Origin: Closterium sp. NIES-65
Lineage: Eukaryota; Streptophyta; Zygnematophyceae; Desmidiales; Closteriaceae
DNA: 64,000 nucleotides
Reading direction: 5' to 3'
NCBI GenBank assembly: GCA_948144175.1
Contig: CANXME010002125.1
Coordinates: forward strand, 249,001 to 313,000
Made by a program: the position numbers and the translations under genes. Positions 1-51,677 of the stretch are shown here, in pieces. Each line of letters opens with the position of its first letter. Within the stretch, counting starts at the first letter, position 1. The notes below the pieces were generated by a model. It worked only from the letters and a program-made list of their open reading frames with translations, ran no database searches and was not told the DNA's origin.

Positions 1-30
1 CTGGTCATTTCGGTACTTGATTACACACGA

Positions 31-199
31 GTATCCAAATCTCACCGGTCGAGTTGTCAATGGTCACCAGCTCCTATGCGTTCCCCACGCAGTACCGTAA
101 ACACGCCCTCTGGTTACCATGTAACGACTTGAGTAGCTGATTCTCAGGGTACCCAAATCTCACCGGTCGAGTTGTCAATGGTCACCGGCTCCTCTGCGT
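31..199. repeat. Tandem copy of the exon 2 tail and donor (exon echo)
   Basis: Bases 31-80 and 150-199 are near-identical copies about 119 bp apart. The right copy is the 3' end of exon 2 plus its donor. The left copy keeps the same donor but has lost the upstream half of the exon. The partial copy lies downstream of the intact exon in gene orientation. Confidence 0.8.
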
Positions 200-1947: not shown

Positions 1948-4900
1948 CTAAAAGGGTTTCTCCCCGGCAGCCCATCTAACAAAATCTAGCCTTTTATTCA
2001 AGCTGTCACGGTGAAGTAATATATCTTTCTCGAAACCCCGGCCACCTCCACAAGATATGGAGCCGGCAAGGAAGATGCTTGACCGCGCACAAACCAGCTT
2101 GTCTAAAATGGCCACGATGCCTGCCAGGAAATATCGCAAAAGACGTCAAATGTAGCCACAACTTCACAAAAAATAGATAATGGGTGAAAAATGATAAGTT
2201 TGACGCACCTGGGTCGAGGCTGTTTGCCGAAGGCATAAGCTCATCAATCATGACAGTCCCTTTCACTTTCTTGCGCAACCAGGACAGCCAATAGTGAGGC
2301 ACATCCGACACATTGTTATCTCCAAACGCCCATTTCAGAGCGTCCCATGACTCCGACCGAGGCGTGACGCCGGACTGATTGTACGGAATATCGGCTGCCA
2401 GAAATACGGTGGATGCGTTGTGCCTGTTTTTTACTTTGTTTATTTTCTGGGCAGCTTCTTTGGTGCACCACCTGGTGCGATCCTTGAGAATTTTCAGCCT
2501 CTCCTCGACTGGGATGTCGGTTCTGTTTTCACCTGCCTGATGACGGTGATGGGGATGGTGATGGGGATGGTGATGGGGATGGGGATGGGGATGGGGATGG
2601 GGATGGGGATGGGGATGGGGATGGGGATGGTGATGGTGATGGTGATGGTGATGACAATGGCGATGGCGATGGGGATGGGGATGGTGATGGTGATGGGGAT
2701 GGTGATGGGGATGGTAATAGTGATGGTGAGTGGATGTTGCAAAGGAACAAATCCCAAGAGCGAAAGACAGTGACACTAAGCCTTGCACAGGAAAAATAAA
2801 CACACACACATACACAAAGGAGGTGGAACCAAGATCGTGGAAACTCTCCCTCTCAAGAGGAGACAAAGGAGGGAACACGCCTCTCTAGCATCCGTATGGC
2901 TCTTGAGGCGCCCAAGAAGCGACATATGGGGAGCATACCAGCCTGAAGGCAATGATCTCGGAGCGGTAATGCACTCCAATGAGCGGCTTGGACAGGCAGG
3001 CAACAATGCGCTTGGCAGCGAGATGCCACTCTCGGGCATTCGGCAGCAACACCACATGTGACACAACACCACATGTGATGAGACACAACACCTTTGTCTG
3101 TCTCCCTCTCGAGGACAGACAAGGGAGGACATGGGCTCCTCCTACTAATAGGGGTACGGCTTTTGAGAGCCTCAAAGGCGATGGATGGGAAGCATGCATA
3201 CCAGCCTGAAGACGATGAACTCGGAGCAGTAGTGCACTCCTATGAACGGCTTGGGCAGACGGGCAACGATGCGCTTGGCAGCAAGGTGCAACTCTCGGGC
3301 ATACGGCAGCAACACATGCGCCATGTAACGTCGACCGTCTCATCTTGCGTTGCGCTCAAGAAAAGACAAGCGAGGGAACAGCAGGCTTCTACTAGCAAGG
3401 GCACGGCTATGGAGACACCACAAAAGCGACAGATGGGGAGCGTACCAGGCGGAAGGCAATGAACTCGGAGCGGTAGTGCACTCCTATGAACGGCTTGGGC
3501 AGACGGGCCACGATACGCTTGACGGCTAGGTGCCACTCTTGGGCATACAGCAGCAACACATGCGCCATGTCATGTCGCCCGTCTAACGCTCAAAGCCTCA
3601 GCAGCAAAGAAGGGGCAGCATACCAGTCGGAAGGCGATGAACTCGGAGCGATAATGGACGCCGATGAAGGGTTTCGGAAGGCGGGCCACGATGCGCTTGG
3701 CAGCGAGGTGCCACTCTCGGGCGTACGGCAGCAACACATGCGCCATGTCGTCTGTTTCCCGATCGAAACGCTCATATGTGTTCTTGGCGTATATCACCAC
3801 ATCCCTGTGCTTCCTGCAAGGCGGAGGAGAGGGAAGGGGGGAGGGGGGAGGGAAGGAGGAGCGAATGGAAGAAAGGGGAAAAGCGGGAAGGGAGGGCGAT
3901 GGGGAGAGGGGAGACGAAAGAATAGGCCACTCGCGGTCATACGGCAGCACTGCATGCGCCTTTTGAGGCGCCTCAAAACCGCGAGACAGGAGATGACTTT
4001 TGAGGCGCCTCAAAACCGCGAGACAGGAGACGACTTTTGAGGCGCCTCAAAACCGCAAGACAGGAGACAACTTTTGAGGCGCCTCAAGAGACGAGAGACC
4101 AGGCCACTCGTGGGCAGACGGCAGCAGTGCATGCTCCTTGTCGCCCGTCTTGCAAACAGAACGCTTGTATGTGTTCTTGGCGTATACCACCACCACCACG
4201 TCCCTGTGCTTCCCGGAGAGGGGGGTAGAGTTTTGAGGCGCCTCAATGCTCGAATGTGTTCTTGGCGTATACCACCACCACGTCCCTGTGCTTCCTGGGG
4301 GGGGGAAGCGGGGAGGGAAAGGACGGGATTTGTGGTAGGAGAGATGCAGCACCATTTATCGTGTGCTCGAAACGCTCGTATGTGTTCTTGGCGTATACCA
4401 CCACACCACGTCCCTGTGCTTCCCCAGTGGGTGCTTCCCCAGTAGGATGAATGTAGATGAGAGCTTGGATTGTGGTTGGTAGGTGTGTGAAAGGATGGTG
4501 TGCGCCATGTCGCCTGCCCCGCGCACTACCCTCCATGTATGTGCTCTTGGGGTACATCACCACCACGTCCCAGTGCTTCCTGGGGGGAGGAGGCCGGTAG
4601 GGAAATGAGAAAATGGGATTGTGGTTGGTGGTGATATGCTCGGATGTGTTCTTGGCGTCTATCATCACATCCCTGTGCTTCCTGCAAGGCGGAGGAGAGG
4701 GAAGGGGGGAGGAAGGAGGAGTGGGGGCAAACAAAACGCTCGGATGTATTCTTGGCGTATATCATCACATCCCTGTGCTTGCTGCAGAGGGGGGTAGAGA
4801 AGAAGCAAGAGAAGAGAACAACTCATGGCAGACGTGCGTGGGAGGACAGGTGTGCGTGGGAGGACAGGCAGGTGTGTGTATGAGACATTGACTGTCTCCC

Positions 4901-6427
4901 GCTTAAGCAGTCATGTGTATATCTATCACTACATCTCTGAGCTTTCTGCTTTCTGCAGAGGGGGATGGAGAAGAACTCTCCTGCTCACGCAGACACATGT
5001 TATATTTTTGGGGTATTTGGTGATAAGAGATGAGTATTCCACTCCATCTCACCATGCCCCACTCTGGCCGGCTCACCATGCCCCACTCCGGCTCACCCTT
5101 TCCCACTACCATCTTACCAAGCGTTGAGCAGGGACTGGATCTGGTCGAAGCGGGCAGGCATGTGCAGCCAGATGGTGTTGCCCCCCGTGGGTACATGCCC
5201 CATGCCACATGCCCCATGCCACATGCCCCATGCCACATGCCCCATGCCACATGCCCCATGCCCCATGCCGCATGCCGCATGCCCCATGCCCCATGCCCCA
5301 TGCCCCATGCCGCATGCCCCATGCCCCATGCCCCATGCCAAGACACGAGCATTGCGCTTCCCCCCAGCAACTCACCAAGCGTTGAGCAGGGACTGGATCT
5401 GGTCGAAGCGGGCAGGCATGTGCAGCCAGATGGTGTTGCCCCCCGTGAGTACATGCCCCATGCCACATACCCCATACCACATGCCCCATGCCACATGCCC
5501 CATGCCACATGCCCCATGCCACATGCCCCATGCACCATGCCGCATGCCGCATGCCCCATGCCCCATGCCCCATGCCAAGACGCGAACATTGCGCTTCCCC
5601 CCAGCAACTCACCAAGCGTTGAGCAGGGACTGGATCTGGTCGAAGCGGGCAGGCATGTGCAGCCAGATGGTGTTGCCCCCCGTGAGTACATGCCCCATGC
5701 CACATACCCCATACCACATGCCCCATGCCACATGCCCCATGCCACATGCCCCATGCCACATGCCCCATGCCACATGCCCCATGCCACATACCCCATGCCC
5801 CATGCCGCATGCCGCATGCCCCATGCCCCATGCCCCATGCCAAGACACGAGCATTGCGCTTCCCCCCAGCAACTCACCAAGCGTTGAGCAGGGACTGGAT
5901 CTGGTCGAAGCGGGCAGGCATGTGTAGCCAGATGGTGTTGCCCCCCGTGGGTACGTGCCCCATGGCCAGCGTGAACACTGCCCCCAGACTCCCTGCAATT
6001 TCCGCTGCTCACGGGGGGTTGGGGAGCATTTGTGGGGAGGATAGATTGGGGTGGGATTGGGTTAGCAGCAGGTGTTGCCCCCCGTGGGCGCGTGCCCCAT
6101 GGCCAGTGTGAACACGGCCCCCAGACTCCCTGCAATTTCCACTGCTCACGGGGCAAGGTTAGGAGCAGCGGAGATCGCAGGGAGGACAGGGGGCGGTATA
6201 CAGATATAAACGAATGCAAGTTCTGTAAATGTACTGTCTGTCTGTCATGTGACTGACAGCACAACGACGGAACGTAATGTATTAGTGCATTCATGGAATT
6301 GCCCTCTGAGAATTATGACTGAACTGAACAACAAACAGAACGTAATGAAGTAGTGCATTCATGGTATTGCTCTCACTATCAAGCTTAGAATTGTTAACAC
6401 ACACACATACGCGCGCGCGCAAGCGCG

Positions 6428-6480
<53 letters not shown>

Positions 6481-7448
6481 ACACACACACACAAAGGTAG
6501 AAGGCAGCTCTTGAAACGCTCGCATCCGTACTAATCTCCCCCCCCTCTCTCCCTACCACGAATTTGAAGAAGGATTTTGAGACGTCTCAAAACCCTTCTT
6601 CAAACACGCTCGCATCCGTACTAATCTCCCCCCCTCTCTCCCTACCACGAATGCTCACTTGTGCCAAAGCAGGGCCGGCCAAGCTCGGGAGTGTCAACAC
6701 AGAGGTATCCCATAGAGCCCGTGAACGGACTAGAATAAAGCAATCGTCAGGCAGGGCCTTGACTCACTTGTGCCGAAGCAGGGTCTGCCGAGCTCAGGTG
6801 TGTCAACACAGAGGTAGCTGACGGTGGGGTGGGAGAAGGCAGGCCTTGACACGACTACAATTGTGCTCTCTTCCTGGCCTTGACTCACTTGTGCCGAAGC
6901 AGGGTCTGCCGAGCTCGGGAGTGTCAACGCAGAGGTAGCTGACAGTGGGTTTGACGAAGGCAGCCCGGGCGAGGAGAAGAAAGAACTCGGGGGAGACCCA
7001 CTCGGTGGCGTTGAGATAAGCCAAGTCGCAGTAGGCACACATGGGCATGGATCGACCCAGCGACAGATGGCTGTGGGACCCCTGAGAAGGAGCGGGTGGG
7101 TAGGGTACGGAGGGAGGCAGGGAGGGAGTGAGGGAGTGAGGAAGGGAGTGAGGGAGGGAGGGGTTGCAACGGCTGCAAGTCGCAGTAGGCACACATGGGC
7201 ATGGATCGACCCAGTGACAGATGGCTGTGGGGCCAATTCACGAGAGTATGACAAGCGTTTAGATCACTGAGGTACCTTGGGCAGCACGAGGATGCGGTTG
7301 GTCTCTCTGGCCACCCGTGCGGCCTCAATGACATGGATCTTGGCGTTGGTGAGCTGCTCCTCCACCGCTGCAAACACCAGATACCTGCGATTGGCAAAGT
7401 CCTGCATCGAAACATACACACACACACACACACACGCACACACGCACA

Positions 7449-7487
<39 letters not shown>

Positions 7488-8916
7488 ACACACACGCACG
7501 CATGCAAACACACACACACATACACACACACACACACAGACACACACGCACACACACAATAACATAAACAGAAACAAAGAGGAAGAGGGGAAGGGAATGA
7601 GGGGGTTTGTAGGTTGCTAGGGATGAGATGAGAGTGGGTTGTCAAGAGATGCATGACATGCATTCACAGCGAGGAAACGGAGGAAGAAGCGTGGGGGAGG
7701 GAGGGAGGGAGGGAGAGAGGGTAGCTTTTGTAGACATTGCTCAAGGAAGTGAATGAAATGCACTCACAGAGAGATGGGAAAACGGCATGCCAGGCACAGG
7801 CCAGCATGCCTCAGGCCAGTGGTTGCAGGGACTGTCTGGGTCACTCGGACTGCTGCCGCTGCTATTGCTATCGTTCCCACTGCTGCCGCCGCTGCTGTTG
7901 CCGCTACCGCTGCTGCTGCTTCCAGCGTAGCTCTTCCCCATCAGCCGTTCAACGTCCTCCACCTTATCGCAAATCGAGTCCACGCCAGCTGAAATACTCT
8001 CCAAAGTAACCCGCTCTTTCTTAAACGCGCGGGTGAGGAAGTGGCTGCCAGGCACACGGTCCAAAAGGCCCTGCTTCCACGCTCGGCTGCACACCACACC
8101 CACGTCCCCCTGCTGCTGCTGCTCCTCCACCTCGTCGCGGCTCAACGGTCGCTTCTGCTGGATTGCAAGTGGGTTCAGTGAACCTGAACCTTTACCTGAA
8201 TCTGAACCTGAACCTGAAGAACCTGAACCTGAATCTGAACCTGAATCTAAACCTGAACCTGAATCCAAACCTGAACCTGAACTAGGACCCGAAGCGGGTT
8301 CTTGAGCTGCGGTAAGTGCTCGCTGCGATGCCTGATGAGCTAGGTTCTGCATGTCTTGGCATAAGGTTACGCTGCACTCCGTGAGCTGAATCGGCGTGAA
8401 CTTCGTTTTCGCGCCAGGGAGCCTGGCTGCTGATTTCAGGACCTTAATGCATGATTCTGATATATTGAAAGCTGCACCTAAGGAAGTCCGGTTGACGTTT
8501 GCTACCGTCGGATCGTCGCCACTCGCCGTCAGTAACCGGCGGAGATTCGCTCCTGGAAACCCGCTGAAGATCACACCGTAGATTAAGCAGCAGACGAAGA
8601 TTCCGAGCAGGATGATCGGGAGTAAAACGGATCGGATTGAACGCTGAACGGCCATGGATTGTGATCCAGCCAGCCACGGTCGCCGTCGGAAGAATTTGCT
8701 AGGGGACTCTCCGAGCGCGGACGGCGGGCGAAAGAAGGCGTCTCGCTGATCTGAGAAGCTGATTTCGTCCAGGTCGGACGGGTCCGACGGGTGCGACGGG
8801 TGCGACGAACGATTGTACGTCGTCGGCTTTTGAGTCGACGCAAAAGCTGGCGGACTTGAGAAGCTGATTTCGTCCACGTCCGATGGGTGCGATGGCCGAT
8901 TGTACGTTGTCGACAT
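1948..8916 (-). CDS. O-fucosyltransferase-like Golgi type II membrane protein, copy A
   Basis: Exons 8916..7768, 7401..7276, 7081..6889, 6004..5878, 3813..3624, 2536..2209 and 2120..1948 join into 761 codons plus stop, with phases identical to paralogue B. Residues about 97-116 form one hydrophobic anchor after an Arg-rich stretch. This is followed by a Ser/Gly/Asp-rich stem encoded by an imperfect repeat (about 8175-8300), then a catalytic region. Exon 2 encodes '[19 protein letters not shown]' and 'LVLPK', and exon 5 encodes '[15 protein letters not shown]', resembling the GDP-fucose protein O-fucosyltransferase family (PF10250). By analogy it would transfer fucose in the Golgi lumen. The acceptor substrate is unknown and family membership rests on motif resemblance. 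Introns 2 to 5 are swollen by partial exon copies and minisatellites. Only one copy of each exon has both splice sites in phase, and that copy was chosen. Codons 1-55 contain an internal duplication around a palindrome. Confidence 0.72.
2537..2735. repeat. GGGGAT/GGTGAT hexanucleotide array at the intron 5 acceptor
   Basis: About 30 hexamers end directly at the acceptor of exon 6 of gene A. On the coding strand the array reads ATCCCC/ATCACC, so it replaces or extends the polypyrimidine tract. It happens to be open in all frames: in the exon 6 frame it would read as a His/Pro run. This is intron, not protein evidence. Confidence 0.9.
2918..3585 (-). repeat. Three echoes of the 3' half of exon 5 (gene A)
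   Basis: Copies at about 2918-3058, 3185-3330 and 3438-3585 match the donor-side half of exon 5 (3624-3813), including the splice donor after the Leu codon, but lack the 5' part and the acceptor. All lie downstream of the intact exon. Degenerate versions of the TTTTGAG palindrome occur between copies (about 2901-2918 and 3161-3177). Confidence 0.85.
3961..4089. repeat. Four palindromes TTTTGAGGCGCCTCAAAA in a 37-bp tandem array
   Basis: Copies start at 3961, 3998, 4035 and 4072, exactly 37 bp apart. The first three are perfect 18-bp palindromes and the fourth has its last bases changed. The 19-bp spacer (CCGCGAGACAGGAGATGAC-type) is repeated with them. The array sits between exon 5 echoes in intron 4 of gene A. 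Confidence 0.97.
4231..4246. repeat. Solitary GGCGCC-core palindrome at an echo junction
   Basis: TTTTGAGGCGCCTCAA, followed directly by a new exon 5 echo. The echoes on its two sides share a repeat spanning the acceptor region, so the palindrome lies at the seam of a tandem duplication. Confidence 0.85.
5114..5877. repeat. Three exon 4 3'-half echoes, each followed by a CATGCCN heptamer array (gene A)
   Basis: Exon 4 donor-side halves with their donors recur at about 5114-5197, 5369-5451 and 5606-5690. Each is followed by 120-150 bp of the heptamer CATGCCC/CATGCCA/CATGCCG (5198-5338, 5452-5576, 5691-5840). The composite unit is about 240-255 bp. All three lie downstream of the intact exon 4 (5878-6004). 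Confidence 0.92.
6071..6148 (-). repeat. Echo of the 5' half of exon 4 (gene A)
   Basis: This fragment matches the acceptor side of exon 4 ('[12 protein letters not shown]' region) and lies upstream of the intact exon. It ends before the donor. Confidence 0.8.
6388..6652. repeat. (CA)n tract followed by a duplicated 47-50 bp segment with a GACGTC-core palindrome
   Basis: A CA/CG-rich microsatellite covers about 6398-6492. A segment beginning CGCTCGCATCCGTACTAATC then occurs at about 6517-6562 and again at about 6606-6651. Between the copies is TTTTGAGACGTCTCAAAA (6575-6592), nested in a longer near-perfect palindrome of about 42 bp (arms TTTGAAGAAGG). Confidence 0.9.
6653..6844 (-). repeat. 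Two echoes of the 3' half of exon 3 (gene A)
   Basis: Copies at about 6653-6715 and 6756-6844 repeat the end of exon 3 ('[13 protein letters not shown]' region) with donor-side sequence. They lie downstream of the intact exon 3 (6889-7081). Confidence 0.85.
7175..7232 (-). repeat. Echo of the 5' half of exon 3 (gene A)
   Basis: This fragment matches the acceptor-side part of exon 3 ('[13 protein letters not shown]' region) and lies upstream of the intact exon, separated by a G/A-rich spacer. Confidence 0.85.
7411..7560. repeat. (CA)n microsatellite in intron 1 of gene A
   Basis: CA dinucleotides with occasional CG or TA start 10 bp upstream (gene orientation) of exon 2. A similar tract sits in the matching intron of paralogue B (22083-22152). 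Confidence 0.95.
8828..8845. repeat. GTCGAC-core palindrome inside coding exon 1 of gene A
   Basis: TTTTGAGTCGACGCAAAA matches the family with one arm mismatch and is translated as part of 'FASTQKP'. The coding sequence on its two sides is duplicated: '[18 protein letters not shown]' and a longer '[10 protein letters not shown]...LDEISFS' copy. Confidence 0.85.
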
Positions 8917-9688
8917 AGTCCGCAGCTAAGACGCGATCACATGGGTACGACGGTCGAAATGCAACGATTGAACTTTCGCCACGAGACAACGCTTTCCGAC
9001 GTGGCAGTAGCTATTCCGTACAAAAAGCTAGTTTCTGATGCCGGCTAAAGTTTAGTATTGTCGTCGTGTTAAACTCCTGCTGGAAAAAACAAATATTGTC
9101 ATCGTGTTAAACTCCCGCTAAAAAAGGCTTTTCAAGGCATCTTGTGTCTACGTTTCACACCATGCGTGAGTCAAGTTTATCTGCTCAACGAAATTGCTTT
9201 TGGTGATCCCTAAATCCACTTGACAGTATAGACTTCTGTAGTACAATGCCTTGCTAGCCGCATCCTATCCGACTATAAGTCTACGGGGTCGAGACGTCTT
9301 CAACGCGAAGTAGTCGACTGAAGTAAGCATCAACTTTCTCCAAGGCGCGCGACCGGACACGAAACGAATCGGTACCTCATCTGTCATCCCGTTCCTGTGT
9401 CAGCAACCTGAGTGAGAACTGGATCATCTGTCAGCCATTACTAAACGTTCTGGAAGGAAATCCAGTGTCCAGCGCAACCCTGTCGGGGAGGGTTGGACAG
9501 AGTCAAAGGTAAGTAATGCGATACTGCACATTTTAAAACGGTAGAGCGCGATTGATTATAAACTGCTGTATGTTCCCACATCTGTGTGATAAGTTGAGTT
9601 CAGTACACTAGCACTGTAGTCGCGAGTCGTTGAAAGGCTTGCGAACTGACAATTTACGACAATTCACGACACGAGGGTGTAGTTGATC
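8917..9688. other. Upstream region of gene A up to the LTR element
   Basis: No coding potential that I trust. It must contain the promoter of gene A. An imperfect local repeat (TATTGTCRTCGTGTTAAACTC) occurs twice, at about 9056-9077 and 9094-9115. Confidence 0.45.
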
Positions 9689-19480: not shown

Positions 19481-19697
19481 TGCAACAACTCAACCCAACC
19501 CAACCCAGGCACGCAGCTGCCGATTTACAGGATGCTCGAAGTGGGTTGAGGAGGCCGTACAGGTACATCCCTGCTTGTCATGGACGCAACATTCATTAAC
19601 AAAGCAGCTTACACATAAAAACAAATGCAAATAAATATAGGTGTCCCACAAAAGAATAACCACATATCATAGAGCCACCCTGTTGGAGCCAATAAAT
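19481..19697. other. 3' flank of gene B
   Basis: A short stretch between the LTR element and the stop codon of gene B, containing an AACCC-rich run near 19490-19507. It probably holds the 3' UTR and poly(A) signal of gene B, so the LTR element landed just behind this gene. Confidence 0.4.
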
Positions 19698-22600: not shown

Positions 22601-23289
22601 TGCTTCCACTCCTTGCTGCACACGATTCCTAGATACTCATTTTTAATGTTATCCACGTCAGCAGGAGTTACAGAACCGACATGGCTAACTGAAGCTGGAG
22701 AGAAACTTCGGTCTTGGTTCTGGATCTCTATAGCCGCTCGCTCTGAAGCTTGGATCGCAAGTTGCTGCATCGCCGAGCATAAACCGGCTTTGCACCTAGT
22801 TAAGCGCGACGGATTAAATTCAGTCCTCGTGGCACCAGGGAGGTTAGCGGCTGCTTGAAGAACATCCACGCAATTGATTGTGATGTTCAAGCGAACGCCT
22901 TTTAGGCTGTTGTCCTCAATCCGCGATACAGCGTCGATCTTCTCGGGTATAAGTCTCCATGTTCCATTGACGTCGCCTTTTAAATCCCGCGTTGCGAATG
23001 TGGCGCTCGTTGCATTCATAGCAGAAAAGCGTAGAACGCTGGATTGAAACGAGTAGCCCAGGAGTAAGGCAGTGAGAAGGCTCAGAAAGAGGAGCAGCTT
23101 GGAAATACGCGACGTGGCCAGTTTGCGGGGATTGGCCAGCCATGGTCGTCGCCTCACGGATTTGCTTGGGGTTTCAATGGTCGAATAACACTCGCTTCGG
23201 TCACCGCTACGCGAATCCTTGAAGCCGCTATCGTTTCCGCTGATTGTGTTAGTACTAGCGGAAGCTATGCGACCAAGTGACCCTGTCAT
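19698..23289 (-). CDS. O-fucosyltransferase-like Golgi type II membrane protein, copy B
   Basis: Exons 23289..22297, 22038..21913, 21551..21359, 21168..21042, 20667..20478, 20322..19995 and 19873..19698 give 710 codons plus stop. The N-terminus has a cytosolic Arg/Lys patch ('RRRPWLANPRK') and a transmembrane anchor at about residues 64-80. Catalytic-region motifs follow: '[19 protein letters not shown]' (exon 2), '[15 protein letters not shown]' and '[14 protein letters not shown]' (exon 3), 'HMPARPDQIRSL' (exon 4), 'KPFIAIHFRSEFIAYNL' (exon 5), '[20 protein letters not shown]' (exon 6), and 'KLICAQAPVFMAG' (exon 7). The layout matches plant O-fucosyltransferase-like enzymes. Junctions and phases equal those of copy A, so the two are tandem duplicates that diverged mainly in the N-terminal stem. 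Exon 6 begins after a TAG acceptor. The introns are compact, with only one partial exon copy. The specific reaction is inferred. Confidence 0.75.
20733..20827 (-). repeat. Echo of the 5' half of exon 5 (gene B)
   Basis: This is a copy of the acceptor and first half of exon 5 ('VVIYSRNTFDRFDRATDDIA' region), directly upstream of the intact exon (20478-20667). It is the only partial exon copy I found in gene B. Confidence 0.9.
20896..20982. repeat. CATGCCC/CATGGC heptamer cluster in intron 4 of gene B
   Basis: A short array of CATGCCC, CATACCC and CATGGC-type heptamers lies in the intron that corresponds to the large heptamer arrays of gene A. A second small cluster of GCCATGA units lies in intron 3 at about 21275-21315. 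Confidence 0.8.
21601..21660. repeat. Homopurine run in intron 2 of gene B
   Basis: A run of A followed by G-rich sequence (about 21608-21650), which reads as C and T runs on the coding strand. Confidence 0.8.
22083..22152. repeat. (CA)n microsatellite in intron 1 of gene B
   Basis: CA/CG dinucleotides occupy the same intron as the CA tract of gene A. Confidence 0.93.
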
Positions 23290-38654: not shown

Positions 38655-39010
38655 TCACTTGTGTTTCCCCACGGGACCGCTGCTGAGGGAGCCTGCCAGC
38701 ATCGTCTCCACCTCCTCACACGCCAGCACTGGTCTCCCTGACCCCCATCTCCTTCCCAACTCGCCCCCCCCCTCTACAAACACACGCACCACCCTCACTT
38801 GTGTTTCCCCACAGGACCGCTGCTGAGGGAGCCTGCCAGCATCGTCTCCACCCCCTCACACGCCAGCACTGACCCCTATCTCCTCTCCTCCCCACCATCC
38901 CCCCTCCCACCCCTTAGCACAAGCCTCTCCCTTGTGCTTCCACACGGGTCTGTGCTGAATGAATCTGCCAGCATCGTCTCCACCTCTTCACACGCCAGGA
39001 CTGGTCACCC
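38655..39010 (-). repeat. Three echoes of the EXO70 terminal exon, each with its own stop
   Basis: Copies at about 38655-38740, 38795-38885 and 38920-39010 repeat the 3' part of exon 13 ('VLACEEVETMLADS', then a Gly-Pro-Val-Gly-Lys-His-Lys-like end and stop). They lie downstream of the true exon and so would normally be 3' UTR or flank. T/C-rich spacers separate them. Confidence 0.88.
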
Positions 39011-39080
39011 TGACCCCCATCTCCTTCCCAAAACACCATCCCACCGCTCCTGCTTTCCCCCTCAATACAGATCACCACCC

Positions 39081-42000: not shown

Positions 42001-45000
42001 GGAATGGGGAAGGGGAGGGGAGGGGAGGGGAGGAGAGGGGAGGGGACGTAAGGGAATGGGGAAGGGGAGGGGAGGGGAGGGGAGGAGAGGGGGAGGGAGG
42101 TAAGGAAATGGGGACGGGGAGGGGAGGGGAGGGGAGGGGATGGGGAAGGGGAGGGGAGGGGATGGGGAAGGGGAGGTAGGGCAGGAGCGGGGTCAGATGG
42201 GAAACGGAGCAGTGAAGGGAAGAGTAAGAAGAGTCGAGGAACACCACACCGAGCTGAACAGACAAGGAGAGAGCAGAGGAAGGGGGGGACGGGGATTGAG
42301 GGATGGGAAGCAAGGGATATAGGAGGGAGAGAATGAGAAGGGGTAGGTGGTAACACGGGGAGCAGTGAAGGGGACGGGAAAGTACCATGCTGAAGTGGGA
42401 CGGGGGGCGAGCGAGCGAGGGGCAGAGAAAGGAGAGGGGGCAGAGGGAGCAGGTGAGCAACAAAGAGTGGAGAGGAGAGAGAAACGGAGAGTAGGGGGTC
42501 ATCTCACAAGACAGGTCCAAAATGGGGTGACCCTACTCTGATTAGTGGGTACCTTGGCGAGTGTGTGCATGATAAATTTGTCCCTGTGATTGTCCACCAT
42601 CGCTCCATATGTGCCGATCCATGCCGTACCAAGCAGCCGCCCGGCATCAGACCTGGAAGATCGGCAGAAGAGGCAAGGCAGCAGGGGCAAAGAGAAGGGT
42701 ATATGTGCATGTGTGTGTGCACATCAACCTTAGTGAAGTGAGCACATCAACCTTAGTGAAGTGAGCACATCAACATTAGTGAAGTGAGCACATCAACCTT
42801 AGTGAAGTGAGAACATCAACCTTAGTGAAGTGAGCACATCAACCTTAGTGAAGTGAGCACATCAACCTTAGTGAAGTGAGCACATCAACATTAGTGAAGT
42901 GAGCACATCAACCTTAGTGAAGTGAGCACATCAACCTTAGTGAAGTGAGCACATCAACCTTAGTGAAGTGAGCACATCAACCTTAGTGAAGTGAGCACAT
43001 CAACCTTAGTGAAGTGAGCACCCCACGCATCAACCTACTTATGAAGAGCCCCGCCAGGCTGTCATGTCTTTTGAGACGTCTCAAAAGCCAGGCTGTCATG
43101 TCTCCGCATCACGCGCCCCTCGCATCACGCATCCCATGCTGGCATTCCATAAGTACCCCTCACATCCCACATGTACCCATCACATTCTACATGTACCCAT
43201 CACATTCCACATGTACCCATCACATCCCACATGTACCCATCACATTCCACATGTACCCATCACATTCCACATGTACCCATCACATTCCGCATGTACCCAT
43301 CACATTCCACATGTACCCATCACATTCCGCATGTACCCATCACATTCCACATGTACCCATCACATCCCACATGTACCCATCACATCCCACATGTACCCAT
43401 CACATTCCACATGTACCCATCACATTCCACATGTACCCATCACATTCCGCATGTACCCATCACATTCCACATGTACCCATCACATCCCACATGTACCCAT
43501 CACATCCCACATGTACCCATCACATTCCACATGTGCCCATCACATCCCACATGTACCCATCACATTCCACATCACATCAGAAGCTTTTGAGTCGACTCAA
43601 AAGTCATTCCACATGTATCCCTCACATTCTCAAAGTTATTTCGAGCGGTTCACCCCGAGATGGATATACATCGGAAGCTTATGCTGACTGATATTGAACA
43701 ACAACATTCCACTCACGCATCAATCTTACTGAGCACACAGGCGAGGCTGTTCATCACAAAAATCTCAACTAGCGTCTCGTCTCGACTCATGCCAATTTCC
43801 TGCACTCTCGCCGGCAGGCGTGCACGTCCCACCCACACACAACCACACACTCACGCATCAATCTTAGTGAGCACGTATGCGAGGTTGTTCATCATAAAGA
43901 GCTCTGCCAGTGACTTGCCTCGACTCATACTCATGTCTAGCACTCGCACACACACATACACACGAACACTCGACTCACACACACACACTCTCACACACCC
44001 ACACACTCACGCATCAATCTTAGTGAGCACGTATGCGAGGTTGTTCATCATAAAGAGCTCGGCCAGCGTTTCGTCTCGTAGCATCACCGCCCGCTGCCCG
44101 AGGTTCGTCTTTAGTGCGTCCACGATGCGGGCGGCGGCGAATGCCAGCCGGCCCTGCACACGTGGCGTCACGATACTGGCTGCTGAGTCGCTGGCGTTGC
44201 TGACCATATCCTCAAACACACACTCGAGTATTTGGAAGTAGGGCAGCTCGCTGCGTGTGCACATGAGGGTGCGGGAGGGTCGGGGAGGGGGGAGAGGACA
44301 GGGAATGGAGCATGAAAGGAGAACCGGACTGTGCAGAGCTCCTGGCGCTGCTAACCATACTCGAGTGCTAAAACACGCAGTCGAGTATTTGGAAGTAGGG
44401 CAGCAACCACATACTAACACAACCTCCACCACCCCATCCCCCTCCCCTTAACATCCCCTCCCATCCCCACCTGTTGCAGAGCAGAAGAAGGTAGTTGACC
44501 ACGTAGCTCGTGATTGGGTGGATGTCCCCTGTGGAGTGGGCGGCAGCAGCTGACGTGGACGTCATCGACGCCACCTCACTTGCTGAGTCATCGCCCTTGT
44601 GCATCATCCTGGCAGGTGGGGAGGGAATGGCGAGGAAGGAGGGACAGAGGGTGAGAGGGGGATGTTGGAGGAAGAAAATGGAGGAGGGAAGGGCGAGCGA
44701 CTTACTGAGTCGTCCCCATGTCCATCATTCTGTCAGGGTGGAAGGTGGGGGCAGGGCGAGGGAGGAGGAAGTGAGGGGAGGGTGGGGGGTGTCGCAGTGA
44801 GTGTCAATCATTCAAGTCATTTACTCCACCTCCACCTCCTGGCAGGCAGGGTAAGGGAGGGGAAGATATATATATTTTTGACTGGGCAACTTTCTACTAG
44901 CCCTCCCTTCTTCTCTTGTTGGATCCAACAAGGAATTTAGAAGAGACAGGGGTTCTAGAACCAGTACAAAAATAAATTAAAAATATAAAGAGTAAAATGT

Positions 45001-48000
45001 TAACCCCCTTCGTTTTCCACAAGCACCCCACTCCTCACTCACTTCTTCAGCCGACCCACCCCCCCAACCTCCCCCCTTTCATCCTTCATTCCACGCAAAC
45101 CAACCAAACCCAACCCTCCCTCCCCATCATTTCCCCCACCCACCCTCCACTCACTTCTTCAGCCGTCCCAGAAGCCCCCCTCCGCGCAGCTCACTCCGTC
45201 CAAACCCTCCTCTCCCACTCTCGCTGGCAGTGGGGCTGGCAAGAGCGGGATACCCCCCTCCTCCTCCCGGCCCGCCCTCCTCTGGCGTCGGCGGTGCCTT
45301 CACAGCCTCTTCAAACTTCTCAAACGTCGCCCTCGCTGCTTGCCCAAGGGTCTTGAGAAGGTGCTGGTACTCCCTCCGCATCATCTCGCCCTCAGGTCCT
45401 TTAAATAGCTCGTCCACCTGCAAGTTTCAGTGGGGAGATTGTGCAGGCAGAGAGGGGAAAGGGAAGGAATACAGGGGCGGATGGGTAGAGAAAGGGGAAG
45501 ACAGACAGACACAGAGGGGGATAGAGGGGCACAGATGAGCAAGGGGGGAACACATGTGCCTTCACGGCCTGGCTGCTCATGTTCAAACTTCTCAAACGTC
45601 GCTGTGGCTGCTTGCCCAAGGGTCTTGAGAAGGTGCTGGTACTCCCTCCGCATCATCTCGCCCTCAGGCCCCTTGAATAGCTCGTCAACCTGCGAGTGTC
45701 AGTGGGAGAGGGGTAAAGGTGGCAGGGGGGAGAGGAAGGAGAAACGAGGGGAAAGGGGGGGAAACAGGCGGAACGGGGGCAGACAGGGTGAGAGGAGGGA
45801 ACACAGGTGCCTTCACCGCCTCTTCAAACGTGTCAAACGTCGCTCTGGCCGCTTAGCCAAGGGTTTTCAGAAGGTGCTGGCACTCCCGCCCGCCGCATCA
45901 TCTCCCCTTCAGGCCCCTTGAATAGCTCGTCCACCTGCGAGTGTGACGTGAGTGGGGAGTATGTGAGGTGAGGGCAGAGCGGGAAAGATGAAGGAGCACA
46001 AGGGCAGATGGAAAGACAGAGGGAAAGAGGGGCAGGAGAGCGATAAGCCCGAGGGTCTTGAGAAGGTGCTGGCACTCCCGCCCGCCGCATCATCTCCCCC
46101 TCGGGCCCCCTTGAATAGCTCGTCCACCTGCGAGTGTTGCATTAGCGGGTGACAGGGAGTGCCATAGAGGGGGAGTGATAAGGAAGGAAGGAAGGAAGGA
46201 AGGAAGGAAGGAAGGAAGGAAGGAAGGAAGGAAGGAAGGAAGGAAGGAAGGAAGGAAGGAAGGAAGGAAGGAAGGAAGGAAGGAAGGAAGGAAGGAAGGA
46301 AGGAAGGAAGGAAGGAAGGAAGGAAGGAAGGAAGGACGGACGGACGGACGGACGGACGGACGGAAGGAAGGAAGGAAGGAAGGAAGGAAGGAAGGAAGGA
46401 AGGAAGGAAGGAAGGAAGGAAGGAAGGAAGGAAGGAAGGAAGGAAGGAAGGAAGGAAGGAAGGAAGGAAGGAAGGAAGGAAGGAAGGAAGGAAGGAAGGA
46501 AGGAAAGGGGGAAAGATGGGCGCCTTCGCAGTCTCCCCAGGCGTCTCAAACGTCGCCCTGGCTGCTTGTCCTCGGGTCTGTAGCCTTGGGATGGGACCAG
46601 AAGGGGCTGTTCTAGGGTCTTCATCTCCCCCCCGGGCCCCTTGAACAACCCCTTACGGTCCGGCGTTGTCTCGTAATCTCGAGGCAAGGAGTTGTTCTAC
46701 GGGTTGAGGAGCCGTTCGGACGGGCGTCTTCTTGATCTCGTGCGTGGAAGCAACATCATTGACTAGCGTTGACTTGACTACCATTGACTTGAGTCAGAAC
46801 AGCACATACCGTGCACTTGAGGTCGAGCGTCGTCTCGTACATATCCAGGAAGGAGAACAGTCGTTCAGGGGTCTTCTTGATCTCGCTCACGGCCTCGCCA
46901 AAGCCAGCGAGCAGTGGGGTGGTGGGGGAAGAGGGGCTGTGACCTGGAAAGGAGCACAGCCCCACTGAGGTCAGTATGTGTATGTGCTGCCTCACGTACC
47001 GTGCACTTGAGGTCGAGAGTCGTCTCGTACATGTCCAGGAACGAGAACAGCCGTTCAGGGGTCTTCTTGATCTCGCTCACGGCCTCGCCAAAGCCGGCGA
47101 GCAGCAGCATGGAGGAGCGCGAGAGGTCCACAAAGCACTGCTCGCCGTAGGGGCCCAGCCCGTCAAACACCTCGTCACACGCCTCCCTCTCCCCCGCCAC
47201 CAGAATCATCTGGCGTGGGGTTGTGGGGGGGGGGCGGGTACGAGGGAGGGTTGAGGGGGAAGAGGGGGGAAGGTGGGGAAGGGGAGGTCGAGCCCGTCAA
47301 ACACCTCGTCACACGCCTCCCTCTCCCCCGCCACCAGAATCATCTGGTAGGGGTGGGGGGTTCGGAGGGAGGTGGGGAGAGTGGGTCGGGGATGGGAGGG
47401 GGGAGGGGGAGTCAGAGGGAAGAGAAAGGGTGGTTGATTGAGAATTAGTTCCCCTCGCCGCATGGGCCCAGCCCGTCAAACACCTCGTCATACGCCTCCC
47501 TCTCCCCCACCACCAGAATCATCTGGCGTGAGGGGGGGTTGGGGGAGTGGTGTGGAAAGCAGAGGGAAGGGGTTGGGAAGAGGAGGAGGGGGGGGAGATC
47601 AAAGGGAAGTAAGAATATGCTCGCCGCACGGGTCGAGCCCGTCAAACACCTCGTCACACGCCTCCCTCTCCCCCGCCACCAGAATCATCGGGTGTAAGGG
47701 TGGGGGGGAGGGGGGGGGGTGGGGGCGGGGGCAGGAACGAGAGGGGAGAGAAGGGGAAGGGAGCAGGGAAGTGGGGAAGAGGGATTTGGAGAGGAAGAAG
47801 GACCTCCACTGTGCATATGTTCCCCCCCCCCTCACCACTCACCCCCAATGTGCATGTGTTTTCCCCACTGCCCCATCCGCTGCTCTCCCCTCTCGAATGG
47901 TCCTCTCGAATAATCCTCTTCTCGTTCCCTCTCCCTCCTCTCCTCCTCCGCTTCTTCCCTCTCTCACTCACCCCAATGTGCATGTGCTGTGCTCGCTCCA

Positions 48001-51000
48001 CCACCTCATCCAGTGCTCTCCCCTCTCCCCTCTCCCTCTCCTCTCCTCTCCTCTCCACTCCTCTCTGGCATCTCCCTCTCTCCCTCTCTCACTCACCCCA
48101 ATGTGCATGTGTTCACTCCACCGTCTCATCCGCTCCTCCAGCTGCGGCCACGGGGTGCTGTGAATCTCCGCCTTGGTCATCGACTGCACGCCCAGCCGCT
48201 GGAAGTTCCTCCTCAACGCTGCCTCTCTTTTCTCCCTGTTGGCAAGGCAGACATACGAAGGAACGAGGGGAGAGGGAATGGAGCTGTTATGGTGCTGTGG
48301 ATCTCCGCCTTGGTCATCGTCTGCACGCCCAGCCGCTGGAAGTTCCTCCTTAGTGCTACCTCCCGCTTCTCCCTGATTGCAGGACACACATACAAGGGAA
48401 CCGAGGGAAAAGGGGAGGATGCTCATATGCTGCTGAAGCTCTCAACTGAGGCTCTCCGCTGAGGCTCTCCGCCTTGGTCATTGTCTGCACGGCCCGCCAC
48501 TGGAAGTTCCTCCTCAATGCGGCCTCTCGTTGCTCCCTGTTTGGTTGGTTACGGACACGGGGACCCAGGGGGCAAGCAAAGGGGGGTGCATGGGGCCACG
48601 GGGTGCCGTGGATTTTGGCCTTGGTCATCGGCTGCATGGCCAGCTGCTAGGATTTCCTCCTCAATGCGGCCTCTCGTTGCTCCCTGTTGGTTTGCAGGTC
48701 ATGAAAACCAAAGGGGAAAGTTAGGGGGGCCTTTGGGGTGCAGTGGTGTGGATCCCCCCCTTTGGTTCTGTCCGCCATTAGGAAGCCAACAACCAACAGG
48801 CACAAAACCAACAGGCACAAAACCAACAGGCACACAACCAACAGGCACAAAACCAACAGGCACAAAACCAACAGGCACACAACCAACAGGCACACAACCA
48901 ACAGCCACACAACCAACAGCCACACAACCAACAGGCACACAACCAACAGCCACACAACCAACAGCCACACAACCACACAACCACTTCTATAGCTCTCCAG
49001 AGTTTTTCCACACCCCCTTCTCCGCCTCCACTCCCCATCCCTCTCCCTCCTCCCCCTTCCTTTCCCCCTCCTCTCGCCATCCTCTCCCTCCTCTCCCTCC
49101 TCGCCCCCTCCTCTCCCCGTCATCTCCCCATCCTCTCTCTCACTGTCCTCCCCTCCAAACACACACACCCAGAGCCTACTTGTAAGCGTGAGTGCAGTCG
49201 GTCGCACATCCATTCTCCACCAGCCGCCAAGCCATGGAGTGCATCCTTGGTTTCCCTCCCTCCCCAGCCAATACCCACCTGCTACCTCCACCACCTCACC
49301 CCTTCCACCGCTCCCAGCACCCCCACCCCCGTCCAATCCCTCCCCCCCCCAGCACACACACCCAGTGCCTACTTGTAAGCGCGAGTGCAGTCAAACGCAC
49401 ATCCGTTCTCCACCAGCCGCCGAGCCATGGCGTGTGTCCCCCTGTTGTTGCCTCTCCTCCCAACCAGCACCCACCTGCTACTTCCCACACCCCATCCTCG
49501 CCACCCTTCCCCACCCTTCCCCACCACCCCCACTCCCTTCAATCCCCCCGCACACACCCAGAGCCTACTTGTAAGCACGAGTGCAGTCGGTCGCGCAACT
49601 GTTCTCCACAAGCCGCCGAGCCATGGCGTGCAGCTTCGGCAGCGCAGCCTCGGCAATCATCTCAGGGGGCGTGATCTGGTCCGGCGACTCCTCCGACAGC
49701 ATCGCCTCCCGAAGCTCGTCCAGGTCCGGAAAGAGGCTGGAGGGGGAGGAGGGGAGAGGAGGGAGAGGGGGGGGGGGGGAGGGGAGGGGGTGGGTGTGAG
49801 GGGGAGTGGGTGGGTTGGGACGATTGGTGAGGGATTGATGGGGGATTGATGGGGGATTGGCGGCAAGGGAAGCACAGAGACGCAGAGGCCCATGGGATGT
49901 GCAGCCTCCCGTGCTATATGCCATGCCGACATCGACTGGAAGGTCTTCAAGCTGTCAAGGATAGAAAGCTAGACCTAACCTTGGAGACTTCTGAATCAAC
50001 CCAACCCAGCAGTCACCTTGTCTCGTTGTCTCCCGTCCTGTTTGCTAACATTGAGTACAAGGTACTCAAGCTGTCAAGGATAGAAAGCTAGCCCTAACCC
50101 AGGTGACTTTCGAATCGACTCAAGAAGTTACCTTGATTCATAGTCTCCCGTGCCATATGCCAGCATCGATAGGAAGCTCTGAAAGCTGCCAAGCGCACAA
50201 AGCTAGCCCTAACCTGCTGTTCCCCTTCCCCATCTGCTGTTCCCCTTCCCCATCTGCTGTTCCCATCCCACCATTTGCTGTTCCCGACCCCCATCTGCTG
50301 TTCGTTCCCCCAGCTGCTGTTCCCCCCCCCCCAGGTCTGCTGTTCCCCTCCCCCCATCTGCTGTCCCCTTTCCCCCATCTGCTGCCCACCTTCCCCCACC
50401 AGCTGTCCGCCTCCTTTCCTTGCTGTCCGCACTTATTCACCCCGCACCCCCCACACCTCCAGCCCGCCTTCCCCCTCTTGCTGTCCGCCACACCCTAGCC
50501 CCACCCACGCCCCACCCCTCTGCACACCTGCTATCTGCGAGCAGCCAGTGGAAGTCCGCCTTCAAATTCTCCATGGCCCGCGCGATCAGGTACCGCCCGG
50601 GCTCCCCCCATGCCACCCACCCCCAACCTGCTGTCCGCCATTCCTCACCCCACAACCCCCACCCCACCCCGCACTCCACCCCTCCGCACACCTGCTATCC
50701 GCGAGGAGCCAGTGGAAGTCCGCCTTGACACTCCTCATGGCCTGCACGATCAGGTACCGCACGACTATGAAGGCCCCCCTACCAACCCACCCCACCGCTG
50801 CCCACCGTTCGTCACCCCACAGCCCCCACCCCAATCCGCACTCCACCCCTCTGCACACCTGCTATCCGCGAGCAGCCCGTGGAAGTCCGCCTTGACATTC
50901 TCCATGGCCCTCATGATCAGGTACCGCCCGTTGCGCAGCTCCTCCTCAATGAACCGCACTGCACCGTTCAGCCGATCCACAGCGTCCAAATACGTGTAGT

Positions 51001-51677
51001 ACGCGTCGCTGTTGCGATCTGGACCGTCCATTATGACATCCCTGACCTGGAGCAGCAGTGTGGGCCGTATCAGTGAAGGAGGGAAAGATGACGGCCAGGA
51101 AAACCGGGAAAGGCAGAACTGACGGACAGAGGTAATAAACTACCAGCTAAAACATGATTGAAACGAAACCGAGAAACGGCATGAATATTACTGAAGACCC
51201 AGGTGCGTTTTGAGTGTACTGGAAGGGCGTTGATGCCATTGACTTGACCTTAACACCATCGACTCTCAAAGGGGGCCATCGTGCATGGTTCTTGACTGCT
51301 GTTTCAACCTGAGACCATTTCTGAGTCGACTCAAAAGAGGTGACTTTTGAGTCGACTCAAAAGTCATCTCAAATGGGGCCATCGTGCATGGTTCTTGACT
51401 GCTGTTTCAACCTGAGACCATCTGAGTGAACGGATCTCAACATAACACCTGGTTGGGGACCTCTACACGCGATGAAGGAACTGGAGGCTCTCCCTTCCAT
51501 GAGACATTGCAACATCTACGCATGGTCAGCAACCTCGTGACTGAATGAAATTCGTTTCTTAATCGTAAATGCGAATTTTGTTATAATTACCTGGTTGGGG
51601 ACCTCGATATGCGTTAGAAGAGCGGCAGGGTCTGATAGGCGAATGCCGGGACTCGGCAGTCCCTGCTCTGCCGCCAT
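39081..51677 (-). CDS. EXO70: EXO70 exocyst complex subunit
   Basis: Thirteen exons (51677..51591, 51046..50859, 50185..50132, 49736..49569, 48235..48097, 47209..47000, 45417..45155, 44608..44471, 44250..44011, 42652..42553, 40915..40860, 40514..40368, 39192..39081) join in phase to 633 codons plus stop, close to plant EXO70A (about 640). EXO70 binds plasma-membrane phosphoinositides and tethers secretory vesicles with the exocyst. Family segments in order: 'YLDAVDRLNGAVRFIEEEL', 'LRRNFQRLGVQSMTKAEIH', 'EHMHIG', 'GEREACDEVFDGLGPYGEQ', 'MLLLAGFGEAVSEIKKTPER', 'LFSFLDMYETTLDLK', 'ATFEKFEEAV', 'IHPITSYVVNYLLLL', 'LAELFMMNNLAYVL', 'LLGTAWIGTY', 'KTFNIILEQMRQRHMAW', and the C-terminal basic end. 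The N-terminal coiled-coil part looks shorter than in land-plant relatives. A Gly/Ser-rich loop is inserted in exon 7. At least 25 partial exon copies and six large arrays inflate the introns. Confidence 0.9.
39350..39755. repeat. AGAGC pentamer array (about 400 bp)
   Basis: AGAGC/AGAGAGC units occur in the last intron of EXO70. The coding strand reads GCTCT, pyrimidine-rich. The array has no coding meaning even though all frames are open. Confidence 0.97.
39785..40280 (-). repeat. Three EXO70 exon 12 3'-half echoes, one carrying an 18-bp exon-derived minisatellite
   Basis: Donor-side copies of exon 12 end near 39785-39860, 39925-40005 and 40030-40280. In the last, the codons for Lys-Ala-Lys-Thr-Leu are amplified into about ten copies of an 18-bp unit (GGGTCTTGGCCTTGAGG on the plus strand, 40077-40262). 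The intact exon 12 has the same motif once. All three lie downstream of it. Confidence 0.93.
40575..40645 (-). repeat. Echo of the 5' half of EXO70 exon 12
   Basis: This copy of the acceptor side of exon 12 ('FNIILEKMRQRHMAWT' region) is placed upstream of the intact exon. Confidence 0.88.
40925..42180. repeat. GGGGA pentamer array (about 1.25 kb) with a nested exon 11 echo
   Basis: The array fills intron 10 of EXO70 and reads as a TCCCC pyrimidine tract on the coding strand. Near its exon-proximal end is a nearly complete copy of exon 11 with acceptor (about 41003-41078). Its distal half (about 41605-42110) shows a longer period of roughly 50-70 bp marked by GTAAGGGAATGGGGAAGGGG. Confidence 0.95.
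42719..43022. repeat. 23-bp minisatellite resembling the end of EXO70 exon 9
   Basis: About 13 copies of ACATCAACCTTAGTGAAGTG plus AGC. The unit is close to the exon 9 3' end on the plus strand (CATCAATCTTAGTGAGCAC), differing mainly by a 5-bp internal duplication (AGTGA). Confidence 0.93.
43053..43103. repeat. GACGTC-core palindrome abutted by identical 16-bp direct repeats
   Basis: TTTTGAGACGTCTCAAAA (43069-43086) is flanked without a gap by GCCAGGCTGTCATGTC on the left (43053-43068) and the same 16 bases on the right (43087-43102). Confidence 0.97.
43150..43602. repeat. 20-bp minisatellite ended by a GTCGAC-core palindrome
   Basis: About 21 copies of CACATTCCACATGTACCCAT with C/T and A/G variants, then TTTTGAGTCGACTCAAAA (43585-43602). 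The array sequence resumes briefly after the palindrome (CATTCCACATGTATCCC). Confidence 0.96.
43700..44405 (-). repeat. EXO70 exon 9 echoes: two 3'-half copies and one 5'-half copy
   Basis: Donor-side copies at about 43700-43800 and 43850-43945 lie downstream of exon 9 (44011-44250). An acceptor-side copy at about 44335-44405 ('YFQILDCVF' region) lies upstream. CA-rich spacers sit between the downstream copies. Confidence 0.88.
44700..44735 (-). repeat. Short echo of the EXO70 exon 8 start
   Basis: This piece matches the acceptor and first codons of exon 8 and is placed upstream of it in gene orientation. Confidence 0.65.
45560..46640 (-). repeat. Four EXO70 exon 7 5'-half echoes and a (GGAA)n array
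   Basis: Acceptor-side copies of exon 7 ('VDELFKGPEGEMMRR' region) occur at about 45560-45694, 45805-45939 and 46030-46130, and a fragmented one at about 46520-46640. All are upstream of the intact exon (45155-45417). A GGAA tetramer array fills 46177-46505 with a small island of GGAC units near 46333-46364. Confidence 0.9.
46690..46912 (-). repeat. Two EXO70 exon 6 3'-half echoes
   Basis: Copies at about 46800-46912 and 46690-46748 match the donor half of exon 6 ('KKTPERLFSFLDMYETTLD' region). The first keeps a GTATGT donor. Both lie downstream of the intact exon. Confidence 0.9.
47288..47692 (-). repeat. Three EXO70 exon 6 5'-half echoes
   Basis: Copies at about 47288-47346, 47455-47525 and 47628-47692 repeat the acceptor and 'MILVAGEREACDEVFDGL', then break off. 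All lie upstream of the intact exon 6. Confidence 0.92.
47830..48020 (-). repeat. Two EXO70 exon 5 3'-end echoes
   Basis: Copies of the His-Met-His-Ile-Gly end of exon 5 with its GTGAGT or GTGAGG-type donor occur at about 47830-47886 and 47965-48020, downstream of the intact exon. Confidence 0.85.
48290..48692 (-). repeat. Three EXO70 exon 5 5'-half echoes
   Basis: Copies at about 48290-48380, 48460-48546 and 48598-48692 repeat the acceptor and 'EAALRRNFQ...MTKAEIH' region. A short remnant may follow at about 48735-48760. All lie upstream of the intact exon 5 (48097-48235). Confidence 0.9.
48785..48985. repeat. 15-bp minisatellite (ACAAAACCAACAGGC)
   Basis: About 13 copies with A/C and G/C variants, in intron 4 of EXO70. 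Confidence 0.95.
49177..49440 (-). repeat. Two EXO70 exon 4 3'-half echoes
   Basis: Copies at about 49177-49240 and 49370-49437 repeat the end of exon 4 ('MARRLVENGCAFDCTRAYK' region) with its donor. They lie downstream of the intact exon 4. Confidence 0.9.
49890..50085 (-). repeat. Two diverged copies of the EXO70 exon 3 region
   Basis: Copies at about 49890-49970 and 50030-50085 include the acceptor and much of the short exon 3 but no good donor. These are the only echoes that do not fit the simple upstream/downstream rule, because a copy with the acceptor lies downstream of the intact exon. Confidence 0.7.
50210..50760. repeat. TGCTGTTCCCC-type repeats and two EXO70 exon 2 3'-half echoes
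   Basis: Units of about 20 bp (TGCTGTTCCCCTTCCCCATC-like) fill 50215-50420. Exon 2 donor-side copies lie at about 50519-50592 and 50688-50760, both downstream of the intact exon 2 (50859-51046). Confidence 0.9.
51272..51490. repeat. 47-bp direct repeat with two GTCGAC-core palindromes between, and an exon 1 echo
   Basis: The 47-bp repeats are 51272-51318 and 51375-51421. Between them are a palindrome with one mismatch (51319-51336) and a perfect TTTTGAGTCGACTCAAAA (51345-51362). About 51441-51490 repeats the end of EXO70 exon 1 with a donor, downstream of the intact exon. Confidence 0.95.

Follow-up and report, generated by a model that had tools for sequence, protein, structure and literature searches.

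Single duplications across an exon boundary are already known: a potato RdRp gene is reported to carry one duplication spanning an intron-exon boundary (PMC4974935), and small tandem duplications are described as arising by fill-in at breaks (PMC8355091). Here we describe dozens of partial exon copies, termed echoes below, in 64,000 bases of the genome of Closterium sp. NIES-65 (the window, which is part of contig C1827 in an assembly of 874 Mb). They surround exons of an EXO70 gene and of two paralogous genes, A and B. Copies of the 5′ part of an exon lie upstream of that exon and copies of its 3′ part lie downstream of it, and the echoes are very probably the decaying relics of repeated short head-to-tail duplications in and around some genes.

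Partial copies at exon ends

The NIES-65 genome has been reported (Kawaguchi et al., 2023; PMC10407611) as 876 Mb from a haploid-phase sample, with a mean intron of 485 bases and with over half of the shared gene groups present in duplicate. Sister copies of the window lie on contigs C214 and C1405, at 0.8–1.5% substitutions from it, which fits the copy-number variation known for NIES-65. C214 ends inside EXO70, and two gene A exons lie beyond the end of C1405. Exon models for EXO70, gene A and gene B were obtained by placing Closterium proteins by spliced alignment, and each exon plus 120 bases was searched against its own gene plus 1.5 kb on either side (blastn, E ≤ 1e-4). Our exon numbering differs from that of an earlier note on this DNA, referred to as the original prediction.

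Forty-six partial copies reach an exon end, close to the roughly 50 that the original prediction had claimed, and every one is on the side it had given. Twenty-two repeat the 5′ part of an exon and lie upstream, while 24 repeat the 3′ part and lie downstream (EXO70 13 + 16, gene A 8 + 8, gene B 1 + 0). Anti-polar, whole-exon and inverted copies each number zero among these 46 in the window. The copies belong to 22 exon ends, 15 of them in EXO70 (10 of 12 exons), six in gene A (3 of 7) and one in gene B (1 of 7); 21 of the ends are exon-intron boundaries and the other is a stop-codon end. The count leaves out three internal pieces outside exons (EXO70 exons 6 and 11, gene A exon 5) and four rows, making up two pairs, within gene A exon 1. 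Echoes diverge from their exons by ∼3–30%, and a control in which EXO70 was compared with genes A and B, both ways, gave no match in 38 exon-by-region comparisons. Comparison of the window with itself at all distances gave 120 direct pairs as against 7 inverted ones.

The patterns previously described for single exons were also recovered. Upstream and downstream echoes number 3 + 2 at EXO70 exon 4, 1 + 3 at exon 11 and 3 + 1 at exon 5, the last with a further fragment recognised by eye, and gene A exon 5 has 6 + 3 with one internal piece. The single echo expected in gene B is the 5′ part of exon 5, lying upstream. The DUF3133 gene of the original prediction, which corresponds to the EDR4 zinc-ribbon exon, is accompanied by one contiguous copy as well as a decayed remnant, and the leftmost gene has one direct repeat. 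On C1405, EXO70 has the same 16 + 13 copies as in the window, besides one inverted copy; on both sister contigs, gene A has 7 + 8 copies and gene B 1 + 1.

Kinesin exons served as a sample chosen independently of echoes, their ends being those of profile matches rather than of modelled exons. The best 30 of 135 kinesin matches represent 15 distinct exon cores, and a same-strand boundary copy is present at five of these. After the addition of six longer stretches, local copies are seen for 14 of 33 cores, and local repeats are absent from 7 of 16 loci and cover more than 10% of another 7 of 16; these figures are biased, as two of the added stretches (C741 and C957) were already known to carry copies. 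All 25 same-strand boundary copies are polar (13 and 12). The other rows are four internal, one inverted and one ‘whole’, the last accounted for by a core, one of the 14, that is itself an echo (L050, 4413980-4414078). GC content, considered as a possible cause of the density, correlates with it at 0.45 over the 16 loci. In the chaperonin profile table, three genes (on C1626, C43 and C1052, each also present as a sister copy) have overlapping same-strand matches in the same layout, as judged by eye. Kinesin profile matches also occur as inverted pairs ∼11–90 bases apart (G000 C511:712945-713361, C1052:556971-557362).

Echo load is very uneven among genes of this genome. Local direct repeats cover 60% of intron bases in EXO70, 58% in gene A (mean intron 780 bases) and 6% in gene B (243 bases). 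Between the echo-bearing genes, their cover is 0% in 23300-27600, which has a GNAT acetyltransferase match, and in 31901-38500, which has a RETICULATA-like match, in keeping with the earlier claim that these neighbours are free of echoes; the names NAA40 and LC8 are those of the original prediction, the profile matches here being GNAT acetyltransferase and RETICULATA-like only. A density ‘far beyond ordinary genes’ therefore holds against the immediate neighbours (60% vs 0%) and fails within the genome, where 5 of 15 kinesin cores have copies.

Origin and turnover of the echoes

We propose that short head-to-tail duplications recur in and around some genes of Closterium sp. NIES-65. Were a segment running from an intron into the following exon to be duplicated, the second unit, joined to the rest of the exon, would work, and the first would be left upstream as a spare 5′ part with its acceptor. 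On the donor side, the mirror image would leave a spare 3′ part downstream. Arrays would gain and lose units, spare copies would drift, and some would vanish by collapse onto the exon. Each event may start as a break whose filled-in ends are then joined end to end, and non-matching spacers may stem from fillers or from later insertions and deletions. If one end of a head-to-tail duplication falls within an exon, the surplus piece can only come to lie on the corresponding side; the side rule is thus evidence of tandem duplication and not of selection. The explanation requires no function for the echoes.

The original prediction had likewise proposed tandem duplications that begin or end inside an exon and have their other breakpoint in an intron, a reading supported both by a contiguous case and by differences in unit number between sister copies. 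Copies are spaced ∼85–270 bases apart, and at the EDR4 zinc-ribbon exon a unit of 220 bases directly adjoins its partner. In the gene A exon 4 array, the window exceeds the sister contigs by a net 265 bases. C1405 carries, in an EXO70 intron, four additional ∼118-base units as well as a 39-base duplication accompanied by 14 bases of filler, and a 138-base unit differs between sister copies of a kinesin locus. Some of these gain-like differences could be losses in the other copy.

Several observations weigh against plain tandem duplication as a complete account. Uniform placement of units would put 53–55% of them on one exon boundary in a compact gene, which favours the account, but only 19% on the present EXO70 layout; to explain how many echoes there are, the ancestral introns must have been shorter or some further bias must have acted. 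Units abut at 29170-29389 and are accompanied by filler in the case on C1405, whereas unexplained spacers occur at the end of EXO70 exon 5 and elsewhere. The exon 5 echo matches over 105 exon bases but 7 intron bases and is preceded by an unrelated spacer of 78 bases, which plain tandem duplication does not give, and several young-looking echoes are non-contiguous. On C1405, at the place matching window position 44875, a 247-base insertion in a TA repeat includes an inverted copy of the EXO70 exon 6 echo; an inverted copy also occurs in the kinesin locus L018/L045, and tandem duplication is therefore not the sole source. Furthermore, the ratio of nonsynonymous to synonymous change (pN/pS) between echo and exon is 0.22 over all 46 echoes and 0.25 with one echo for each of the 22 exon ends, the latter lower than the means of 0.44–0.55 obtained by simulating an unconstrained echo beside a constrained exon; in none of the eight settings did any of the 300 runs give so low a value.

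Much of this synonymous bias sits on shared changes, which include those of the exon lineage. Over ten gap-free families, changes common to all echoes used per family are 23 synonymous vs 6 nonsynonymous, and those private to one echo are 37 vs 50; this split excludes the EXO70 exon 4 donor, EXO70 exon 6 acceptor and gene A exon 5 acceptor families and one echo each of exons 11 and 12. Private changes are near neutral though not fully so, and their nonsynonymous share of 57% falls short of the 72–77% under neutrality. Coding constraint on echoes as the cause of the low pN/pS is thus weakened by the split, yet remains. An over-representation of exon ends among the duplications was also considered: the observed share, judged roughly, is striking against 19% and in line with the 53–55% of a compact gene.

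Templated insertion, in which breaks in introns are patched from nearby DNA, would yield both spacers and occasional inverted copies, and the insertion on C1405, the inverted kinesin copy and the non-matching spacers all speak for it. As the general source of the echoes it is unlikely, since random insertion would not yield polar, same-strand copies in 46 of 46 and 25 of 25 cases; beside tandem duplication, it is likely a minor contributor.

The original prediction had held that selection makes the rule, all arrangements arising and survival being confined to copies that carry just one splice site, so that whole-exon copies had been purged. We consider this improbable, as geometry forces the side. 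The absence of whole-exon copies among the 46 would suit it, but such events should make up only 8% of boundary-plus-whole events, or 1.78 of 22, and P(0) = 0.16 gives little power in either direction (uniform placement of units whose lengths are set to 23 copy spacings, including one measured on a sister contig, with the 22 ends taken as independent). Purging of whole-exon copies is unnecessary, and weak purging is possible. Moreover, an upstream acceptor decoy would rival the true acceptor, so the surviving side is not plainly harmless, and the echoes at the stop-codon end of the last EXO70 exon behave alike without any splice site. Splice dinucleotides are undepleted in echoes, being kept in 38 of 43 compared with 345 of 425 control exon dinucleotides, with no sign in this comparison of decoys being disabled.

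It is about as improbable that selection maintains the echoes for a function in alternative or recursive splicing. The low pN/pS and the nonsynonymous shortfall even in private changes would agree with such a role, as would the mostly intact splice dinucleotides, the five losses all being acceptors and donors being kept in 21 of 21. P0001, a deposited Closterium sp. NIES-65 protein and the closest protein match to EXO70, when aligned to C1405 with splicing, apparently takes in the nearer downstream echo of exon 8 as a 69-base exon. Against this, the echoes contain 6 stop codons, and 12 of 46 have gaps in the exon part; in 9 of these 12 the summed gap length is not divisible by three. Relatives also carry the exon residue at most of the 83 residues that differ between exon and echo in EXO70 (NIES-68 68, Yama58-4 79, NIES-53 73 and the distant paralogue P0006 54), and in gene A they side with the exon at 52, 34 and 34 of 52 differing residues. 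Echo number differs between sister copies as well. Lastly, an assembly artefact of long-read arrays, for which the repetitive, GC-rich introns might speak, can practically be dismissed, as the copies have diverged from their exons, recur nearly unchanged on C1405 (those of genes A and B also on C214), and come from an assembly described as built from PacBio Sequel reads (read N50 30 kb) plus linked reads (PMC10407611).

Recurrent tandem duplication may also have consequences for the exons themselves. The window lacks an echo and a spacer that its sister copies have at exon 3 of gene B; the end of its exon and the adjoining intron follow the sequence of the echo, one base being diagnostic. Presence of the echo looks ancestral because the start of the sister intron resembles that of paralogue A by eye, and we read the window exon as having collapsed onto its echo, in this single case. 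As a tentative extension, echoes might act as a shuttle, in which a duplicated part drifts within the intron, recombines back and supplies the exon's last bases, donor and intron start. Turnover of exon ends and splice sites in this way, through cycles of echo birth and collapse, is a possibility we hold to be somewhat doubtful; gene B exon 3 would then represent one such step between sister copies. The synonymous excess common to all echoes of a family could be a trace of the same process.

Genes and features of the window

The features are collected in Table 1. The EXO70 model comprises 615 codons and a stop, and its Exo70_N match is weak, slightly below the cut-off. Simple-sequence or minisatellite arrays in its introns (39362-39598, 40075-40239, 41168 and 42722-42977) vary in length between the window and C1405, and the 247-base insertion on C1405 is flanked on both sides by the motif CAGTCAAAATATA.

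Genes A and B are O-fucosyltransferase-like, based on precomputed PF10250 matches on three relatives; the window itself gives a sub-threshold match only. Exon 1 of gene A contains two internal repeats with spacings of 105 and 63 bases, each divisible by three, which speaks for the duplication account, although one of these precedes the start codon used by one relative. The likeness between A and B is 88% in exon 3 (6884-7089 and 21354-21559), 80–84% in stretches of exons 1 and 2 and 72–78% in later exons, and this unequal likeness suggests exchange between the paralogues. Between them, 9690-19486 has no match of at least 300 bases in the sister contigs, which have a different ∼5.6 kb there. 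It holds a retroelement with a copia-type look, judged from its open frames. Two direct repeats of 445 bases, 96% alike, lie at 13370-13813 and 18961-19405. A repeat with a donor-like end is also present at 27620-27847, between the acetyltransferase gene and the zinc-ribbon exons.

Table 1. Genes and echoes in the window, with positions counted from its first base.
Feature	Position	Strand	Details
Leftmost gene, direct repeat of 51 bases	31..199	-	94%
Gene A	1951..8925	-	Exons 8655 (or 8925)-7768, 7401-7276, 7081-6889, 6004-5878, 3813-3624, 2536-2209, 2120-1951; exon 1 start uncertain; spliced alignment of P0010-P0012
Gene A exon 5 3′ part with donor, 3 downstream echoes	2928..3571	-	83-86%
Gene A exon 5 5′ part, 6 upstream echoes	4103..4799	-	AG lost in two; blastn
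Gene A exon 4 3′ part with donor, 3 downstream echoes	5100..5699	-	Sister contigs have one echo fewer (net difference 265 bases)
Gene A exon 4 5′ part, upstream echo	6071..6153	-	94%
Gene A exon 3 3′ part with donor, 2 downstream echoes	6654..6845	-	73%, 91%
Gene A exon 3 5′ part, upstream copy without acceptor	7176..7234	-	97%
Gene B, paralogue of A	19701..23286	-	Introns 121-374 bases; spliced alignment
Gene B exon 5 5′ part, upstream echo	20741..20820	-	91%
Gene B exon 3 end, looks collapsed	21354..21404	-	Sister contigs +128 bases (echo + spacer); echo's base now in window exon
EDR4 zinc-ribbon exon 5′ part and ∼120 pyrimidine-rich bases before putative acceptor, upstream copy	29170..29389	-	Contiguous, head-to-tail; exon boundary by eye
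Last EXO70 exon end around stop codon, 3 downstream echoes	38655..39001	-	No splice site; 75-92%
EXO70 gene, 12 exons	39081..51677	-	Exons 51677-51591, 51046-50859, 49736-49569, 48235-48097, 47209-47000, 45417-45155, 44608-44471, 44250-44011, 42652-42553, 40915-40860, 40514-40368, 39192-39081; spliced alignment of NIES-68 protein P0005
EXO70 exon 11 3′ part with donor, 3 downstream echoes	39782..40097	-	81-96%
EXO70 exon 11 5′ part, upstream echo	40573..40670	-	87%
EXO70 exon 10 5′ part, upstream echo	41015..41107	-	97%
EXO70 exon 8 3′ part with donor, 2 downstream echoes	43710..43910	-	blastn
EXO70 exon 8 5′ part, upstream echo	44342..44404	-	Acceptor AG lost; blastn
EXO70 exon 7 5′ part, upstream echo	44700..44786	-	73%
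EXO70 exon 6 3′ end, short downstream echo	45027..45058	-	32 bases, 87.5%
EXO70 exon 6 5′ part with acceptor, 3 upstream echoes	45582..46135	-	77-93%
EXO70 exon 5 3′ part with donor, 1 downstream echo	46803..46914	-	105 exon bases, 5 differences, all synonymous; 78-base non-matching spacer before echo
EXO70 exon 5 5′ part, 3 upstream echoes	47291..47761	-	AG lost in one; 70-81%
EXO70 exon 4 3′ part with donor, 2 downstream echoes	47829..48011	-	72%, 83%
EXO70 exon 4 5′ part with acceptor, 3 upstream echoes	48291..48690	-	72-83%
EXO70 exon 3 3′ part with donor, 2 downstream echoes	49162..49434	-	77%, 89%
EXO70 exon 2 3′ part with donor, 2 downstream echoes (50763-50575, 50599-50488)	50488..50763	-	82%, 86%

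Comparison with known systems

The feature is real, in four gene families of this genome, and it is of an ordinary kind, short tandem duplication, that is dense in particular genes; its polarity is no new rule. In open-licence literature listings we found no description of genes with most exons flanked by partial copies whose splice sites are intact. Echoes supply dozens of natural decoys with local sequence like that of the true site, and thereby a test of what else guides splicing. They are also one route by which introns may grow (compare the introns and repeat cover of genes A and B), and they could lead gene prediction astray, a risk to which the deposited NIES-65 EXO70 protein points. 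Plant cases of small tandem duplications have reportedly been studied by Vaughn and Bennetzen and by Puchta's group.

An introner or other mobile element would place the same sequence in unrelated genes; the 38 comparisons gave none, and these set EXO70 against genes A and B only, with no wider search made. Tandem or mutually exclusive exons resemble the echoes in being duplications internal to a gene, but in the cases described there whole exons are copied and used (PMC9013439), whereas in Closterium only parts of exons are copied and none of the 46 copies in the window is a whole exon with both splice sites. In Drosophila, novel intron positions attributed to sliding or tandem duplication likewise involve coding segments duplicated near splice sites; the intron is reported to move or to be new, while in Closterium it lengthens and the true splice sites seem to keep their place (PMC2891723). 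The duplications ascribed to fill-in of staggered breaks and end joining share the short head-to-tail units, and filler is present in one fresh Closterium case, although the Closterium units frequently exceed 100 bases and recur densely within certain genes (PMC8355091). The closest likeness is to potato RdRp, where the unit as described comprises the 3′ part of an intron and the 5′ part of an exon, head to tail, so that the acceptor and exon start occur twice. That is presented as a single case in which a new intron is spliced in, whereas in Closterium 22 exon ends in three genes are affected, in addition to kinesin loci, with no known new intron (PMC4974935).

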